From positions 1 through 26,457 of the IMG/VR virus record IMGVR_UViG_3300024273_001401: 26,457 bases of DNA. One strand, given 5' to 3'. Position numbers and translations under genes: made by a program. The number at the start of each line of letters is the position of its first letter. Position 1 is the stretch's first letter. This DNA comes from a virus. The notes beneath the pieces were generated by a model, which worked only from the letters and a program-made list of their open reading frames with translations, was not told the origin of the DNA and did no database searches. Shown here in pieces: positions 1 through 15,866 of this stretch.

Positions 1-261
1 AACTAAAATGTTACTGTTCCCATCTGTGCAGGTAACTAAAAACTCGTTTTTATCCTGCCTTTTTAGCTCCCAATTTTGGAAAGCTTCTTTCTTAAATTTG
101 GCTTCTATCTGATAGCTTCCAACTATATCTAAAAACCAATAACAATCTAGCTGTTCTAAAACTGCTCGCACTCCGGAGGTGTATGTTACACGTAAAAAGC
201 TGTTACGGTAGTATTGGTCTGTTCCGCTGTAATCACTAAATAATTCGTTTGCTGTCTTCAT
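1..261 (-). CDS. DUF6876-like small protein, 3' end cut by the window
   Basis: The minus-strand frame opens with ATG at 261-259 and stays open to the window edge, giving the first 87 residues. It starts MKTANELFSDYSGTDQYYR and contains TYTSGVRAVLEQLDCYWFLD followed by VGSYQ. The pattern 'YT-GV-...-CYW-LD-I-SYQ' is what I associate with DUF6876, a family of small proteins in Bacteroidota phages and conjugative elements with no assigned function. The stop codon lies outside the window. It is the last visible gene of a minus-strand series, 12 bases after the stop of its upstream neighbour. Family assignment is from memory of the motif; no catalytic residues are recognisable. Confidence 0.75.
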   Translation of the reverse strand, partial: MKTANELFSDYSGTDQYYRNSFLRVTYTSGVRAVLEQLDCYWFLDIVGSYQIEAKFKKEAFQNWELKRQDKNEFLVTCTDGNSNILV

Positions 262-481: not shown

Positions 482-703
482 TTAAAATTCGTTTTCGTCT
501 GTAGTGTCCCATTCAAGGAACAAAACAGTTCCTTTTTTTACGTGTATATAGTCCGTTGTGCCATTATAGCCTTCAAGCTCGTATCTTTTGTTGTACCTGC
601 AAAAATCACCTCTTAAAAAGCAGTATTTAGCCGTGGCTGTGCGTTTTACTAAAGTGCCTTTTTTGATGTCTTCAACTCTGGCGGTGGTGGCTGTGTCTTT
701 CAT
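482..703 (-). CDS. Small hypothetical protein downstream of the hammerhead ribozyme
   Basis: This 73-residue protein begins MKDTATTARVEDIKKGTLVKR. The middle and end (RGDFCRYNKRYELEGYN, then YIHVKKGTVLFLEWD) look like a small beta-rich fold. I have seen comparable short proteins with a 'V-KKG--VKR' start and an 'R-KKY-----Y------I--KKGT-L' end in Bacteroidota phages, but I know of no function. The leader is short and A-rich. A hammerhead ribozyme at 769-720 lies immediately upstream, so self-cleavage would give this gene an mRNA whose 5' end is about 22 bases before the ATG. The gene is real by spacing: stop-to-start gaps on either side are small and all neighbours share the strand. Confidence 0.65.
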   Translation of the reverse strand: MKDTATTARVEDIKKGTLVKRTATAKYCFLRGDFCRYNKRYELEGYNGTTDYIHVKKGTVLFLEWDTTDENEF

Positions 704-719
704 GATGTTTGTTTTTATT

Positions 720-769
720 GGTTAAGACTCCCGGAGGAGTTTCGGTCATTTAGACCTCGTCAGTTAACC
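720..769 (-). ncRNA. Hammerhead ribozyme (type I arrangement) in an mRNA leader
   Basis: Read on the minus strand from 769 to 720, all hammerhead core elements are present in order. Stem I is GGTTAA (769-764) pairing with TTAACC (725-720). The core CTGACGA (763-757) matches CUGANGA. Stem II is GGTC-TAAAT-GACC (756-744). GAAA is at 743-740. Stem III is ACTCC-TCCG-GGAGT (740-727), where A740 is also the last A of GAAA. C726 is the unpaired residue before the expected cleavage point between 726 and 725. The element fills nearly the whole gap between the stop at 771 and the ATG at 703, so it would cut the polycistronic transcript between these two genes. Stem I is short (6 bp) and I see no obvious internal loop for the usual loop-loop contact, so its activity is uncertain. 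Hammerheads are known in phages and prophages. Confidence 0.87.
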
Positions 770-770
770 T

Positions 771-1019
771 TTAGTATATATATAAATACATTATACCTTT
801 TTTGCTTATTACGTAGCTGTTGAAGGCTGTAAATAATGCTAGTACGTCAGTTGCACCATAAAAAACGTCTTCACGTTCATAGGTGTTAAAAATTAAAATT
901 CCTGCACCGTCTTTTTTCCATCTTACATTTCCGCAGGTGTAACTTGAAGAGCTTTCAATTATATATATCATTGCCTGCATTCTGATTTCTGTCGTTGTCA
1001 TTGTTTCTGTCGTTTTCAT
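771..1019 (-). CDS. Small hypothetical protein upstream of the ribozyme
   Basis: The 82-residue product starts MKTTETMTTTEIRMQAMIYI and ends with a hydrophobic tyrosine-rich tail (KKGIMYLYIY). A short beta-rich middle includes SSSYTCGNVRWKKDGAG. The Thr-rich opening (TTET-TTTEI) resembles that of its neighbours (KDTATTA, ETLTTTTA), as is common for small Bacteroidota phage proteins with similar leader codons. An internal ATG (MTTTEI) six codons in is an alternative start. No family is recognised. It is the second gene in the minus-strand series after the ArdA-like gene, and its stop codon directly abuts the hammerhead ribozyme. Confidence 0.55.
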   Translation of the reverse strand: MKTTETMTTTEIRMQAMIYIIESSSSYTCGNVRWKKDGAGILIFNTYEREDVFYGATDVLALFTAFNSYVISKKGIMYLYIY

Positions 1020-1059: not shown

Positions 1060-1635
1060 TTATCTCTCCATTAACCAACTAATTAACTCGGCTTCGTTTA
1101 TATAGTCAATAGGATCTTTTACACTCTCTAGGTTTCCGTAACCGTTAAATTTTATGTAGTCATGTGACCAATTCACGTAACCAAATTGTACAGCTCTGGC
1201 GGCTTCCATCGGAGCGTTAGAAAAAAACATATTAAAAAATTCATCATCGAAACAATAAATTTCGTCGTCGCCTCTTCTGTTTTCGTCGCAAAACTCTCTC
1301 CATAGGTTTAGCTTCTCGCTGTCATCTAAATTTTCGAAGTCTATTTCGATATACTTATATATCTGTTCGAAGTTGCACCCGGATTCAGAATAAAACTCTT
1401 CTGGGAATCCTTCGAAATCTGTTATCATTATCTCTTCTCTTATACTTCCGTAATCATCAAGCGGGCTAATTTTGTCACACTTTTTAAAATGCTCGCTTAT
1501 ATATTCGTTTAGTTCGTCGGCATCTGAAAAGTCGTTCAGCTCTACCCAATGACCAAATTCAAATTGGCTTCCATCGTTATAACTCGCATAATCAGTTAAA
1601 AAAATCTTTGCTGTTGTTGTGGTTAAAGTTTCCAT
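1060..1635 (-). CDS. ardA: ArdA-like antirestriction protein
   Basis: The 191-residue, strongly acidic protein contains KIFLTDYASYNDG near residue 10, then FGHWVEL, a helix-like DADELNEYISEHF, and ITDFEGFPEEF. This is the order seen in ArdA (PF07275): 'I-V-DLAAYN-G---G-W--L', then the 'I-D-EGFP' segment. ArdA proteins mimic B-form DNA through surface acid residues and block type I restriction enzymes. The C-terminal part has FSNAPMEAARAVQFG and FNGYGNLES, an extension that recurs on ArdA-like proteins of Bacteroidota mobile elements as far as I recall. It is the first gene of the minus-strand series, consistent with early expression on entry. Upstream lies an AT-rich inverted repeat (1695-1725). 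Confidence 0.8.
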   Translation of the reverse strand: METLTTTTAKIFLTDYASYNDGSQFEFGHWVELNDFSDADELNEYISEHFKKCDKISPLDDYGSIREEIMITDFEGFPEEFYSESGCNFEQIYKYIEIDFENLDDSEKLNLWREFCDENRRGDDEIYCFDDEFFNMFFSNAPMEAARAVQFGYVNWSHDYIKFNGYGNLESVKDPIDYINEAELISWLMER

Positions 1636-10636: not shown

Positions 10637-10996
10637 ATGCCTAAAATATCTATTGAACAGATAAACGTATCAGGAACTCCAAGCTCTTCGACTTATTTAC
10701 GAGGTGATAAAACTTGGGCAACTGCTGCGAGTGGCGGCACATTTTTAAAAGATGAATTTTCATATACTGCGTCGCAGACTTTTACCACTACCAATCCATA
10801 TAGCGGAGTGCTATTGATAACGGTTAATGGAAGAGAATTATTCTCGACGCAATATACTACGCCTAGTAGTACTACAATTACAATTTCTGACACTTTGCAA
10901 GCAGGTGATGTAGTAATGGTAACGTATAATTTGATCGGTGATATTTTGGGCGATATAGTAACGGCTTTAAACACAATTAACGGACAGATAATTTAA
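10637..10996 (+). CDS. Short fibre-associated protein with C-terminal module
   Basis: The 119-residue protein begins MPKISIEQINVSGTPSSSTY followed by LRGDKTWATAASGG. 'GTPS-ST-LRGD-TWA' is a linker motif frequent in phage fibres. The rest (FSYTASQTFTTTNPYSG, LLITVNGRELF, LQAGDVVMVTYNLI) appears to be a diverged copy of the C-terminal module of the two preceding proteins: a strand with 'V-NG', then 'L-aGD-V-V-Y'. Its TAA overlaps the ATG of the next gene by one base (TAATG), so translation of the two is coupled. Confidence 0.6.
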   Translation: MPKISIEQINVSGTPSSSTYLRGDKTWATAASGGTFLKDEFSYTASQTFTTTNPYSGVLLITVNGRELFSTQYTTPSSTTITISDTLQAGDVVMVTYNLIGDILGDIVTALNTINGQII

Positions 10997-12726
10997 TGGG
11001 AACAATAGCGGAAAAGTTAACGTATTTAGGAGGTACTAAAAGTGCTATTAGAGATGCTATTGTGGCGAAAGGCGTTGCTGTACCCGTTGAAACAACTTTT
11101 AGGAATTACGCTACTAAGATAGCAGATATTAGTGGTGGTGGTGGTAGTGCCTTAGAATGGACTGAGGCTTATTGGCAAAATATTTATGACAACTCCTATT
11201 CAAGACCCGTAGATTGGTTGGACATTATAACTCCGCATCCGCTAGTTCAAGGCGACCAAAAATTTGTTGGATTACACGCTGTTTACAATCATAGTAGTAA
11301 TTTCTGCGCTTTATTATGCACTACTTCTACAGGACAATACAGAGTAAATTGGGGAGACGGAACGACTTCTGACCACAACTCCGGCACAACAGCTTATAAA
11401 ATACTTACTTATTCAGATTTTAGTGGCACAGATACTAGTCGTGGGTATAGACAAGCAATTATTACAATTGTTCCATTAACAGGAAACCTTTTGACGGTAG
11501 ACCTGTATCAAAAACACAATCAATCAGGACTTGTTTCGGGATATTCATCAGGTTGGTTGGACATAAGGATAGCAGGTAATTTTATTGCAGGATTAGTATT
11601 GGGAAATAATTCTACAAATATTAAGAATGCTATGATTGAGCAATTTGAGTTTGTAGGCACAAACGTATTGACGACTTGTGATGCGATGTTTTCAAATTGT
11701 CAAAGTTTATTAAAGATAATTGCTTTGTATATACCGCCATCAGGCAGTATTTCTTTTTTTTCTATGTTTTCTAATTGCTATAATCTACAAACTATTCCTT
11801 TACTAAATACAGTAAATGCAAGTTCTATGACCAATATGTTTAATAATTGCTACATTCTACAAACCATTCCTTTACTAGACACAGCAATTGTTACTACTAT
11901 GAATAGTATGTTTTATAAGTGCCGTAGTATGGAAACTATTCCTTTACTAAACACAGTAAGTGTTACTAATATGAGCTATATGTTTGCTGATTGCCATAAA
12001 CTACAAACTATTCCTTTACTAAACACAGTAAGTGTAAATAATATGACCAATATGTTTAATAATTGCTACATTCTACAAACCATTCCTTTACTAAACACAG
12101 CAATTGTTACTGCTATGGGCAGTATGTTTTATAATTGCTATAGTATGGAAACTATTCCTTTACTAGACACAGCAATTGTTACTAATATGGGCTATGCATT
12201 TGCTAATTTAATCAAACTACAAACTATTCCTTTACTAAACACAGTAAGTGTTATTAATATGTATGCTGCGTTTAGTAATTGCTATAATCTACAAACTATT
12301 CCTTTACTAAACACAGCAATTGTTACTGACATGACCTATGTGTTTTATAATTGCTACAGTCTACAAAACATTCCTTTACTAAACACAGCAAGCGTAACTT
12401 CTCTACCCTATATGTTTGCTAATTGCAACAATTTACAAACTATTCCTAATATGCAATTAACAAACACAACTAGTAGTACAAGTTTTATTAATGTATTTTT
12501 AGGCTGTAACTCGTTATCGGCTGTGCCAATTGACGGAATAAAAAACGACATTTCTTTTGCAGACTGTAAATTAGGGCAGGTTGAATTAGTTGATATATTT
12601 AATAGGCTACCTACGCCTTATACGGGAAAATTTATTACAATAACAGGAAATTTTGGAGCATCATTACTAACGACGGCAGAGAGAGAAATAGTAACCGTGA
12701 CTAAAGGTGGGTCAATAATCGGATAA
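10996..12726 (+). CDS. BspA-like leucine-rich repeat (DUF285) adhesin-type fibre protein
   Basis: The 576-residue protein begins MGTIAEKLTYLGGTKSAIRD; 'T-A-KLTYL-GTK-AI-DAIVAKG' is a common phage fibre N-terminus. After a Gly-rich linker and a beta domain (about 60-220) come nine close copies of a 24-residue repeat of the form IPLLNTxxVTxMxxMFxNCxxLQT. They are BspA-type leucine-rich repeats of the DUF285 class, a solenoid known from bacterial surface proteins. A degenerate tenth unit and a C-terminal cap follow. The repeats are also nearly identical as DNA. Probable function is receptor recognition, with copy number open to change by recombination. Confidence 0.8.
   Translation: MGTIAEKLTYLGGTKSAIRDAIVAKGVAVPVETTFRNYATKIADISGGGGSALEWTEAYWQNIYDNSYSRPVDWLDIITPHPLVQGDQKFVGLHAVYNHSSNFCALLCTTSTGQYRVNWGDGTTSDHNSGTTAYKILTYSDFSGTDTSRGYRQAIITIVPLTGNLLTVDLYQKHNQSGLVSGYSSGWLDIRIAGNFIAGLVLGNNSTNIKNAMIEQFEFVGTNVLTTCDAMFSNCQSLLKIIALYIPPSGSISFFSMFSNCYNLQTIPLLNTVNASSMTNMFNNCYILQTIPLLDTAIVTTMNSMFYKCRSMETIPLLNTVSVTNMSYMFADCHKLQTIPLLNTVSVNNMTNMFNNCYILQTIPLLNTAIVTAMGSMFYNCYSMETIPLLDTAIVTNMGYAFANLIKLQTIPLLNTVSVINMYAAFSNCYNLQTIPLLNTAIVTDMTYVFYNCYSLQNIPLLNTASVTSLPYMFANCNNLQTIPNMQLTNTTSSTSFINVFLGCNSLSAVPIDGIKNDISFADCKLGQVELVDIFNRLPTPYTGKFITITGNFGASLLTTAEREIVTVTKGGSIIG
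11788..12445 (+). repeat. Tandem 72-base repeats coding for the leucine-rich units
   Basis: About nine direct repeats of 72 bases share blocks such as CTACAAACTATTCCTTTACT, with variation centred on the codons after AACACAG. Two groups alternate (GCAATTGTTACT and GTAAGTGTTA types). Nucleotide identity is clearly higher than protein function alone requires, suggesting recent duplication or gene conversion. Confidence 0.8.
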
Positions 12727-13850: not shown

Positions 13851-15866
13851 ATGGCTACTTTACCAAAAATATTTCCGAATTCATTTATTTCTCAGACAGG
13901 TACGTGGTCTCCCACTACCCCGTCCACTATAAGCAACGGGGTTCTTACTCCGTCGGGAAGTTTAATGGTGTCAGGAACAAATGATTCGAGTACAATACGT
14001 TTTGGATTAACTGATATGCCGTCGGACTTTGTAAGAATGAACACTTTAAATTTCAGCCTAAGATATAGTGTTTCAAGTCTTGTTGACGATACGGAACAAT
14101 TACAATTTCTCTTAACGGCTAGTGATTTAGTAACTTGGATTGCAGGTGCGAGCGTGTTTGTTGTAACACATACGACTTCCGTAGGTCTCACTAATATCTT
14201 AAACGTTTCGTTTCTCAACCCAAGCTCTTCTCTTGATAAACAAGTGTGGGATGGTGCTGTACTTCATGTAATAACTACACACACGAAGAACAAGGGAGCA
14301 GATAATTCTTTTTGGTCAATTGACGAGATAGAACTTAATGGTACTTATGATACCTCTCCTACCGTAGTTTTAAATTCTCCTGCTAATAACGCTCAGGAGG
14401 TTGCGCTTATACCGACCTTTAATTTTACAGGAACAGATTTAGACAATGATACTATTGAATATCAAATACAGGTTGCTACAACGAATACTTTTAATAGTGA
14501 TGTACTCGCTTTTAATCCTCCTACTTACATTGCGTCAATTCAGTCAATTTTAAATGATGCAACAGTTAATTCATCGGGGTTATTTGTGGCTATTGGTAGA
14601 GGTACAAATGCAACTTATTCTCCTATATATGCTACTTCAACAGATGGGTCTACTTGGACTACGCCTGCAAACATGAATGGCTCGACTGTTCATGCTAATA
14701 TGCAATGTTTAGCAGTTAATTCATCGGGTTTATTTGTGGCGCTTGGTGTGGATGTAAATAATTATGCTGTATATGCTACTTCTACAAACGGTTCAAATTG
14801 GACTACTCCTGCACTTATGAATGGTTCGGTAGTTTGGACTCCTACTTCTATAACAGTTAATTCATCGGGGTTGTTCGTGGCTATTGGTCAGGTCGCTTTA
14901 AATTATCCTCAATACACTACTTCAACAGATGGGTCTACTTGGACTAGTCCTGCAAATATGAACGGCTCGACTGTTTATGCAAATATGAATTGCGTAACAG
15001 TTAATTCATCGGGGTTGTTCGTGGCTGTTGGTAGAGATACAAATACTTATCCTACATACGCCACTTCAACAGATGGCTCTACTTGGACGACTCCTGCGTT
15101 AATGAATGGGTCGAATGTATTCGCTTATCTGACTAAGGTAACAGTTAATTCATCAGGATTATTTGTGGCTGTTGGTCGTAACAATTCCAATTTTCCTTTA
15201 TACGCTACTTCTACAAACGGTTCAAATTGGACTACTCCTGCACTTATGAATGGTTCGACTGTTGTTGTTCAAATATATGCATTAGCAGTTAGTCCATTGG
15301 GTTTATTTGTGGCTCTTGGTAATAATGCAACTAATCGTGGTGTATACGCCACTTCAACAAATGGTTCAAATTGGACTACACCTAGGCATATTGATTATAC
15401 GACATATTATTTAGCAGTTACGGCTATAACAGTTAATTCATCGGGGTTATTTGTGGCTATTGGTACAGGTGGCGGACAGGTAGCTGCTATAAGCACTCCT
15501 TATTTATCAGCTTTAATTGACGCAAAATCAGATTATGACGTAGGTTTCACGGCAGGACATCCGTTTGCTTCGGGGGTTCAGAAATCTTATACGTCACAAA
15601 TAACATTGCTTAACGACACTACTTACTATTGGCGTGTACGTGGAATCGACTTGCTTGGTAGTAATATATACGGAGCATGGTCAACTGTAAGAAGTTTTCA
15701 ATCACTAGTAGGCGTTATTGTGTATGTAGGTATATTAAAAAGATGGAATGGCTCTACTTGGAGTAAAGCAAAATTAATGCGTTGGAACGGCTCGGCTTGG
15801 GTAGCGCCAAAGCTCAAAAGATGGGACGGCTCAGCATGGAAATACACAGATATAACAGGGATATAA
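13851..15866 (+). CDS. Receptor-binding-type fibre with propeller-like repeats nested in an FN3-like domain
   Basis: The 671-residue protein has an N-terminal beta domain (about 1-165), then FN3-like strands (SPANNAQEVALIPTFNFTG, IEYQIQVATT). Next come six full repeats of about 48 residues plus a seventh partial one, each with VNSSGLFVAxG, then YATSTDGSTWTTP and MNGS. The FN3-like domain then resumes with YYWRVRGIDLLGSN and GAWSTVRSF. The repeats resemble BNR/sialidase-type propeller blades (STDG-TW). The end has three copies of a 'RWNGS-W' motif, typical of phage fibre tips. I infer a globular binding head inserted in an Ig-like stalk domain. It is the last gene of the fibre operon. Confidence 0.75.
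   Translation: MATLPKIFPNSFISQTGTWSPTTPSTISNGVLTPSGSLMVSGTNDSSTIRFGLTDMPSDFVRMNTLNFSLRYSVSSLVDDTEQLQFLLTASDLVTWIAGASVFVVTHTTSVGLTNILNVSFLNPSSSLDKQVWDGAVLHVITTHTKNKGADNSFWSIDEIELNGTYDTSPTVVLNSPANNAQEVALIPTFNFTGTDLDNDTIEYQIQVATTNTFNSDVLAFNPPTYIASIQSILNDATVNSSGLFVAIGRGTNATYSPIYATSTDGSTWTTPANMNGSTVHANMQCLAVNSSGLFVALGVDVNNYAVYATSTNGSNWTTPALMNGSVVWTPTSITVNSSGLFVAIGQVALNYPQYTTSTDGSTWTSPANMNGSTVYANMNCVTVNSSGLFVAVGRDTNTYPTYATSTDGSTWTTPALMNGSNVFAYLTKVTVNSSGLFVAVGRNNSNFPLYATSTNGSNWTTPALMNGSTVVVQIYALAVSPLGLFVALGNNATNRGVYATSTNGSNWTTPRHIDYTTYYLAVTAITVNSSGLFVAIGTGGGQVAAISTPYLSALIDAKSDYDVGFTAGHPFASGVQKSYTSQITLLNDTTYYWRVRGIDLLGSNIYGAWSTVRSFQSLVGVIVYVGILKRWNGSTWSKAKLMRWNGSAWVAPKLKRWDGSAWKYTDITGI
14560..15475 (+). 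repeat. Direct repeats of about 144 bases coding for propeller-like units
   Basis: Seven copies of a block beginning ACAGTTAATTCATCGGGGTT recur at intervals of roughly 135-150 bases, with near-identical stretches such as GCTACTTCAACAGATGG. The sixth copy is the most diverged (AGTCCATTGGG in place of AATTCATCGGG). Confidence 0.75.

Follow-up and report, generated by a model that had tools for sequence, protein, structure and literature searches.

A compact type I hammerhead ribozyme between two cistrons of a phage gene string, and its many relatives in viral contigs

Background

The literature acknowledges that the role of hammerhead ribozymes in bacteria and phages is still open (PMC6155905). 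The question is raised again by 50 bases on the minus strand, at positions 720-769, of a viral sequence of 26,457 nucleotides (IMG/VR record IMGVR_UViG_3300024273_001401; the whole stretch is called the window here), which an earlier note read as a hammerhead that cuts a phage mRNA between two genes. Is this element a genuine hammerhead, how widespread is its design, and what might a phage gain from it?

Results and discussion

A hammerhead in the gap between two small genes

The element is a compact type I hammerhead ribozyme with a complete core, and all its parts follow one another in order on the minus strand, as the earlier note had claimed. Read from 769 to 720, it begins with the 5' strand of stem I, GGUUAA (764-769), whose partner UUAACC lies at the far end (720-725). 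Between the two strands come the catalytic core CUGACGA (757-763), intact in relatives; stem II, GGUC/GACC (756-753 paired with 747-744), closed by a UAAAU loop of the UNANU type (744-756 in all) and supported by sequence, fold and relatives; the core GAAA (740-743); and stem III, (A)CUCC/GGAG(U) (740-736 paired with 731-727), closed by the loop UCCG (727-740 in all) and supported by sequence, fold and covariation in relatives. Every stem pair is formed. As in other type I hammerheads, CUGANGA precedes GAAA, three stems are present with the strand ends at stem I, the A15.1-U16.1 pair is found (A740-U727), and position 17 is H and not G (C726). By homology to known hammerheads, cleavage is predicted between C17 (726) and 725, and UUAACC would form the first part of the released leader. 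The minimum free energy fold of positions 690-800 is exactly the hammerhead structure (z -2.35).

Stem I has no outer extension, and it is flanked by an unpaired A directly on its 5' side (770) and a counterpart directly on its 3' side (719). This A/A cap and the UNANU loop are conserved in the group described below; judging from sequence, the A after stem I and the loop may represent a pared-down form of the tertiary contact that usually joins loops I and II.

The 50 bases fit the intercistronic gap closely, another point on which the earlier note holds. The stop codon of the upstream cistron (771-1019, minus strand; 82 aa, no family) ends 1 nt before the ribozyme, and an A-rich leader of 16 nt (704-719) follows it, placing the predicted cut 22 nt from the ATG at 703 of the downstream cistron (482-703, minus strand; 73 aa, no family). 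The leftward string begins with an ArdA antirestriction gene (1060-1635, minus strand), an assignment that the earlier note had made and that is confirmed by Pfam PF07275 (E 2.4e-9, 38.4 bits against a cut-off of 27) and by PHROG 2059 (anti-restriction). At its end, the string is clipped by the contig end within a gene of the DUF6876 family (window 1-261, minus strand; Pfam PF21781, E 1e-23). Promoter and terminator scans gave no excess over shuffled sequences, and the flavobacterial -33/-7 motif was not found upstream of ardA. Protein searches of viral contigs with both flanking genes (82 aa and 73 aa) returned no relatives.

Detection by covariance model and by Rfam

A covariance model built from 30 diverse metagenomic relatives, with the window left out, gives the element 72.7 bits (E 1e-19), and the runner-up match in the window reaches 9.7 bits. 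The Rfam hammerhead models, which the earlier note had proposed as a check, do not recognize it: the entire window has no match at E<=1, and a scan of the small region gave sub-threshold matches only, of which the best was RAGATH-1-hammerhead (RF03152; 21.6 bits against a cut-off of 56.3). Hammerhead_HH9 (RF02275) reached 17.4 bits against a cut-off of 52, with its outer stem unpaired. The same holds for the relatives: one of 50 group copies, from 16 loci, reaches an Rfam cut-off, and six further loci have no group copy above it. Under far looser stem criteria, 400 first-order Markov copies yielded four hammerhead-like matches, about 0.01 per window. A chance origin of the element is excluded.

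A large group of uniform design

Three pattern scans of viral contigs gathered a group of at least 234 sequences, the window included, that contain at least 316 type I, at least 12 type III and at least two type II hammerheads; the reversed sequences of the same set, used as a control, contain none. The type I copies are very uniform. Among the matches listed, the 279 distinct copies have a stem I of 6 bp, preceded by A in 96% and followed by A in 94%, a stem II mostly of 4 bp with a pentaloop, and a variable stem III that measures 10-59 nt together with its loop. Position 17 in the relatives is C in 86% and A in 13% of the matches listed. Because the search patterns partly set these features (one fixed part of the stem I conservation, another part of that of loop II), each was measured only where it had been left free; in the loop-free set, loop II positions 1, 3 and 5 are U in 89/89, A in 82/89 and U in 81/89 of the matches listed. 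At three loci (L142:2597-2683, L154:3864-3950 and L223:3970-4056), an extra hairpin stands in place of the stem II loop.

Among the matches listed, 201 distinct places were picked by core and loop sequence alone. Stem II forms in 194 of these 201, and stem III together with a stem I of exactly 6 bp in 198; a longer stem I occurs in none. The covariance model, applied to the relatives' loci, found 149 copies in 100 loci, and the core is intact in all 30 model-found relatives that the core pattern had not selected. The group is large, compact and almost wholly missed by standard RNA family models.

Covariation among relatives and in cultured phages

Covariation in relatives, the other check proposed in the earlier note, is strong. 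Among the 30 diverse copies, 12 of 15 pairs change on both sides. The 100% of paired cells in that alignment is partly circular because the sequences had been chosen as hammerheads; the unbiased test is provided by the 201 places picked by sequence.

Cultured phages give closer comparisons. In the Flavobacterium elemo phages, whose flanks are near-identical, stem II is GGUU/AACC in elemo A and GACU/AGUC in elemo E, a difference of two compensated pairs. The intercistronic hammerhead of elemo D and F (L258 and L257) has GACU/AACC, with two mismatches; some natural copies may therefore be weak. From its sequence, this allele is possibly a mosaic of the A and E alleles recombined through loop II. 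All 68 elemo records contain the hammerhead stretch. Cellulophaga phages phi18:3 and phi19:3 have the leader and the downstream gene in common; their stem III sequences are unrelated, yet both pair.

The elemo phages also carry a type III hammerhead (L235:10206-10260 in elemo A, MT497074.1), which stops 15 nt short of the rightward string's first gene and whose core, CTGAAGAGTCACAGAATGACGAAAC, is identical across four elemo lineages (A, D, E and F). Two hammerhead types are thus present in these phages. Similar type III hammerheads lie directly before type I copies in other phage contigs (L032:6077-6131 and L038:12616-12669).

Placement in strings of small genes

The position of the ribozyme relative to genes is as regular as its fold. 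Among the matches listed, the distance to the next ATG has a median of about 17-18 nt (242 relatives for the value of 17 nt), and a start codon follows within 40 nt in 88% of copies versus 26% at random places. The upstream stop codon adjoins the ribozyme or falls within it, and in about half of the copies listed the stem I strand or CUGANGA contains the end of the upstream reading frame; the UAA of GGUUAA and the UGA of CUGA are examples of such embedded stops.

Several copies often share a string. At locus L071, five ribozymes within 1.7 kb separate single genes or short blocks; the spacing between copies has a median of 580 nt among the matches listed, and a whole record can contain as many as nine, clustered and all on the same strand. 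Among the loci listed, none combines copies from the two strands. Downstream of the ribozymes lie small genes, most of which have no known family; 294 such proteins among the matches listed fall into 218 clusters, and the ribozyme therefore tracks the position rather than the gene. Family scans of 92 downstream proteins left almost all of them unknown and revealed no shared function. ArdA was considered as a constant neighbour and rejected, an ArdA relative being present at only a handful of loci.

Phage relatives

The window belongs to a phage of flavobacteria. Its terminase (58% identity) and portal proteins place it near Cellulophaga phages phi18:3, phi19:3, phi13:2 and phi46:3 (Pachyviridae), and next nearest to the Flavobacterium elemo phages. 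The hammerhead occupies the same kind of intercistronic gap in cultured phi18:3 and phi19:3 and in the elemo phages, and in phi18:3 its gene string includes ArdA. In phi13:2 and phi46:3 the downstream gene and most of its leader are retained but the ribozyme is missing, so that gene can do without it. Two contigs, of 65 and 51 kb, have the terminases closest to that of the window, and the covariance model matches neither.

Elsewhere in the window, a 576-aa protein (10996-12726) contains many degenerate repeats around LQTIPLLNT, and a 671-aa protein (13851-15866) with repeats of the type VNSSGLFVAIG...YATSTDGSTWTTPA is perhaps a tail fibre or adhesin.

An unannotated gap of Agrobacterium phage OLIVR1 (Schitoviridae; L240:3960-4009) contains a compact hammerhead of 60.3 bits; the group is therefore not confined to flavobacterial phages. 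Only three contigs from metagenome-assembled genomes (MAGs) matched, and as these are possibly misbinned phage, no host claim is drawn from them. Two short contigs, one of a Streptomycetaceae MAG (L237) with four compact hammerheads and one of a beta proteobacterium MAG (L236) with two, are possibly phage contigs misbinned into bacterial genomes.

Proposed function and alternatives

The element in the window is probably an active compact type I hammerhead that cuts a leftward polycistronic phage mRNA between two cistrons. As in the earlier note, the element is best read as a cutter of polycistronic mRNA, and we infer both the cleavage, by analogy with known hammerheads, and co-transcription from ardA. 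The upstream product of a cut between 726 and 725 would be the ardA/82-aa mRNA, which would keep the ribozyme body (including stems II and III) at its 3' end and terminate in a 2',3'-cyclic phosphate. The downstream product would carry the 73-aa cistron and begin with a 5'-hydroxyl and an A-rich leader of 22 nt. Strings of small, fast-changing phage genes could in this way become separate mRNAs without any protein, and the presumed benefit would be that each cistron has its own mRNA stability and translation. Such cleavage may tune expression or stability, as the earlier note suggested; sequence alone does not say in which direction expression would change.

An active ribozyme might instead chiefly lower expression, acting as a built-in brake that uncouples downstream translation and feeds 5'-hydroxyl mRNA to decay. 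In Bacillus, the mRNA that the glmS ribozyme leaves with a 5'-hydroxyl end after cleavage is subsequently degraded, and the frequent overlap of the stop codon with stem I or the core is also consistent with a brake, so that translation could compete with folding. However, the ribozymes precede many unrelated genes (the 218 clusters noted above), and the leader has a narrow length that suits initiation; we consider this reading possible but doubtful. It is unlikely that the ribozyme chiefly protects phage RNA, whether through a structured 3' end, through unusual ends (2',3'-cyclic phosphate and 5'-hydroxyl) that resist host nucleases or RNA-directed defences, or by permitting ligation or circularization. 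The location of the copies in clusters of small genes of unknown function would fit protection, as would the near-exclusive occurrence of type I among the core-pattern copies listed, since the body of a type I ribozyme remains attached to the upstream mRNA at its 3' end; but the type I excess may come from the sampling patterns, and spliced or circular products have been sought and not found (Perreault et al. 2011, PMC3088659).

Other observations could point to a selfish or recombination-promoting module, in which the conserved core between genes marks exchange junctions and cleavage is incidental. Homology between the Cellulophaga phages stops at or near the ribozyme, stem I is identical in 31% of pairs within a phage versus 2% between phages (among the matches listed), and the elemo D/F allele resembles a recombinant through loop II. 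Recombination alone, however, requires neither covarying stems nor an intact core, and copies on both strands of a locus are absent from the loci listed, which makes such a module distinctly improbable. That the element is a decayed or chance hammerhead-like structure, and inactive, is very improbable indeed: the failure of Rfam to recognize it is offset by the exclusion of chance, by the invariant core in relatives and by a window copy in which no pair is lost.

Cleavage of the phage mRNA between cistrons thus remains the preferred reading for the window. Extended to the group, it would mean that many phages of flavobacteria and other bacteria have a dedicated, protein-free mRNA maturation, in which a compact hammerhead at the gene junction incorporates the stop codon of one gene, folds and cuts once the ribosome has left, and gives every small gene a separate mRNA; this wider proposal is tentative and may well prove wrong. 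Because annotation with Rfam overlooks nearly all of this large and uniform group, its extent is probably underestimated. The cultured phage siblings already offer intact, compensated and mismatched alleles, as well as relatives in which one and the same gene is or is not preceded by the ribozyme, and these natural variants make function testable in infected cells with nothing new to build.

Comparison with known hammerheads

The earlier note regarded the placement between cistrons beside ardA as undescribed, which does not stand. In A. tumefaciens, a triple hammerhead flanks ardA and shows activity both in vitro and on transcription in E. coli, and hammerheads lie upstream of ardA in Legionella; in prophages, clustered hammerheads surround single genes, and processing to single-gene mRNAs was proposed, with cleavage demonstrated for three arrays in vitro and for one in E. 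coli (Perreault et al. 2011, PMC3088659). Intercistronic placement and the idea of mRNA processing were therefore already known. The earlier note is thus right about the hammerhead, its position between cistrons and the ArdA neighbour but not about novelty, and it missed the size and uniformity of the group.

Four things seem to be new: the compact subclass, how large it is, the stop codons embedded in it, and the natural test alleles that cultured phages supply. None of the four was found in the literature searched, most subscription journals lying outside it. The window hammerhead is of the kind described by Perreault et al. (2011), lying between genes of a phage string and on the same strand, and the prophage arrays share with its group the arrangement of several ribozymes around single genes or short blocks with ardA nearby. 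As that study describes them, those arrays mix types I-III and lie in prophages, whereas the group has one compact type I design in free phages, with stop codons that fall within the ribozyme and a leader that is short and fixed.

Among the known families, type I hammerheads (Rfam RF00163, Hammerhead_1) share with the window element the core, the three stems, the strand order and the opening at stem I, but the group differs by its stem I of exactly 6 bp with an A/A end and without the outer stem I that bears the usual tertiary contact. Hammerhead_HH9 has a similar size and a 6-bp inner stem I but, unlike the window element, an internal loop and an outer stem I. The extra 5' hairpin of RAGATH-1-hammerhead, the family with the top Rfam score, is not clearly formed in the window. 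The HHphage element of haloviruses HF1 and HF2 (Perreault et al. 2011, PMC3088659) resembles the window element in position, as it belongs to an early phage gene string and precedes a start codon by 13 nt, but it is a variant hammerhead of an archaeal virus, reported in one copy.
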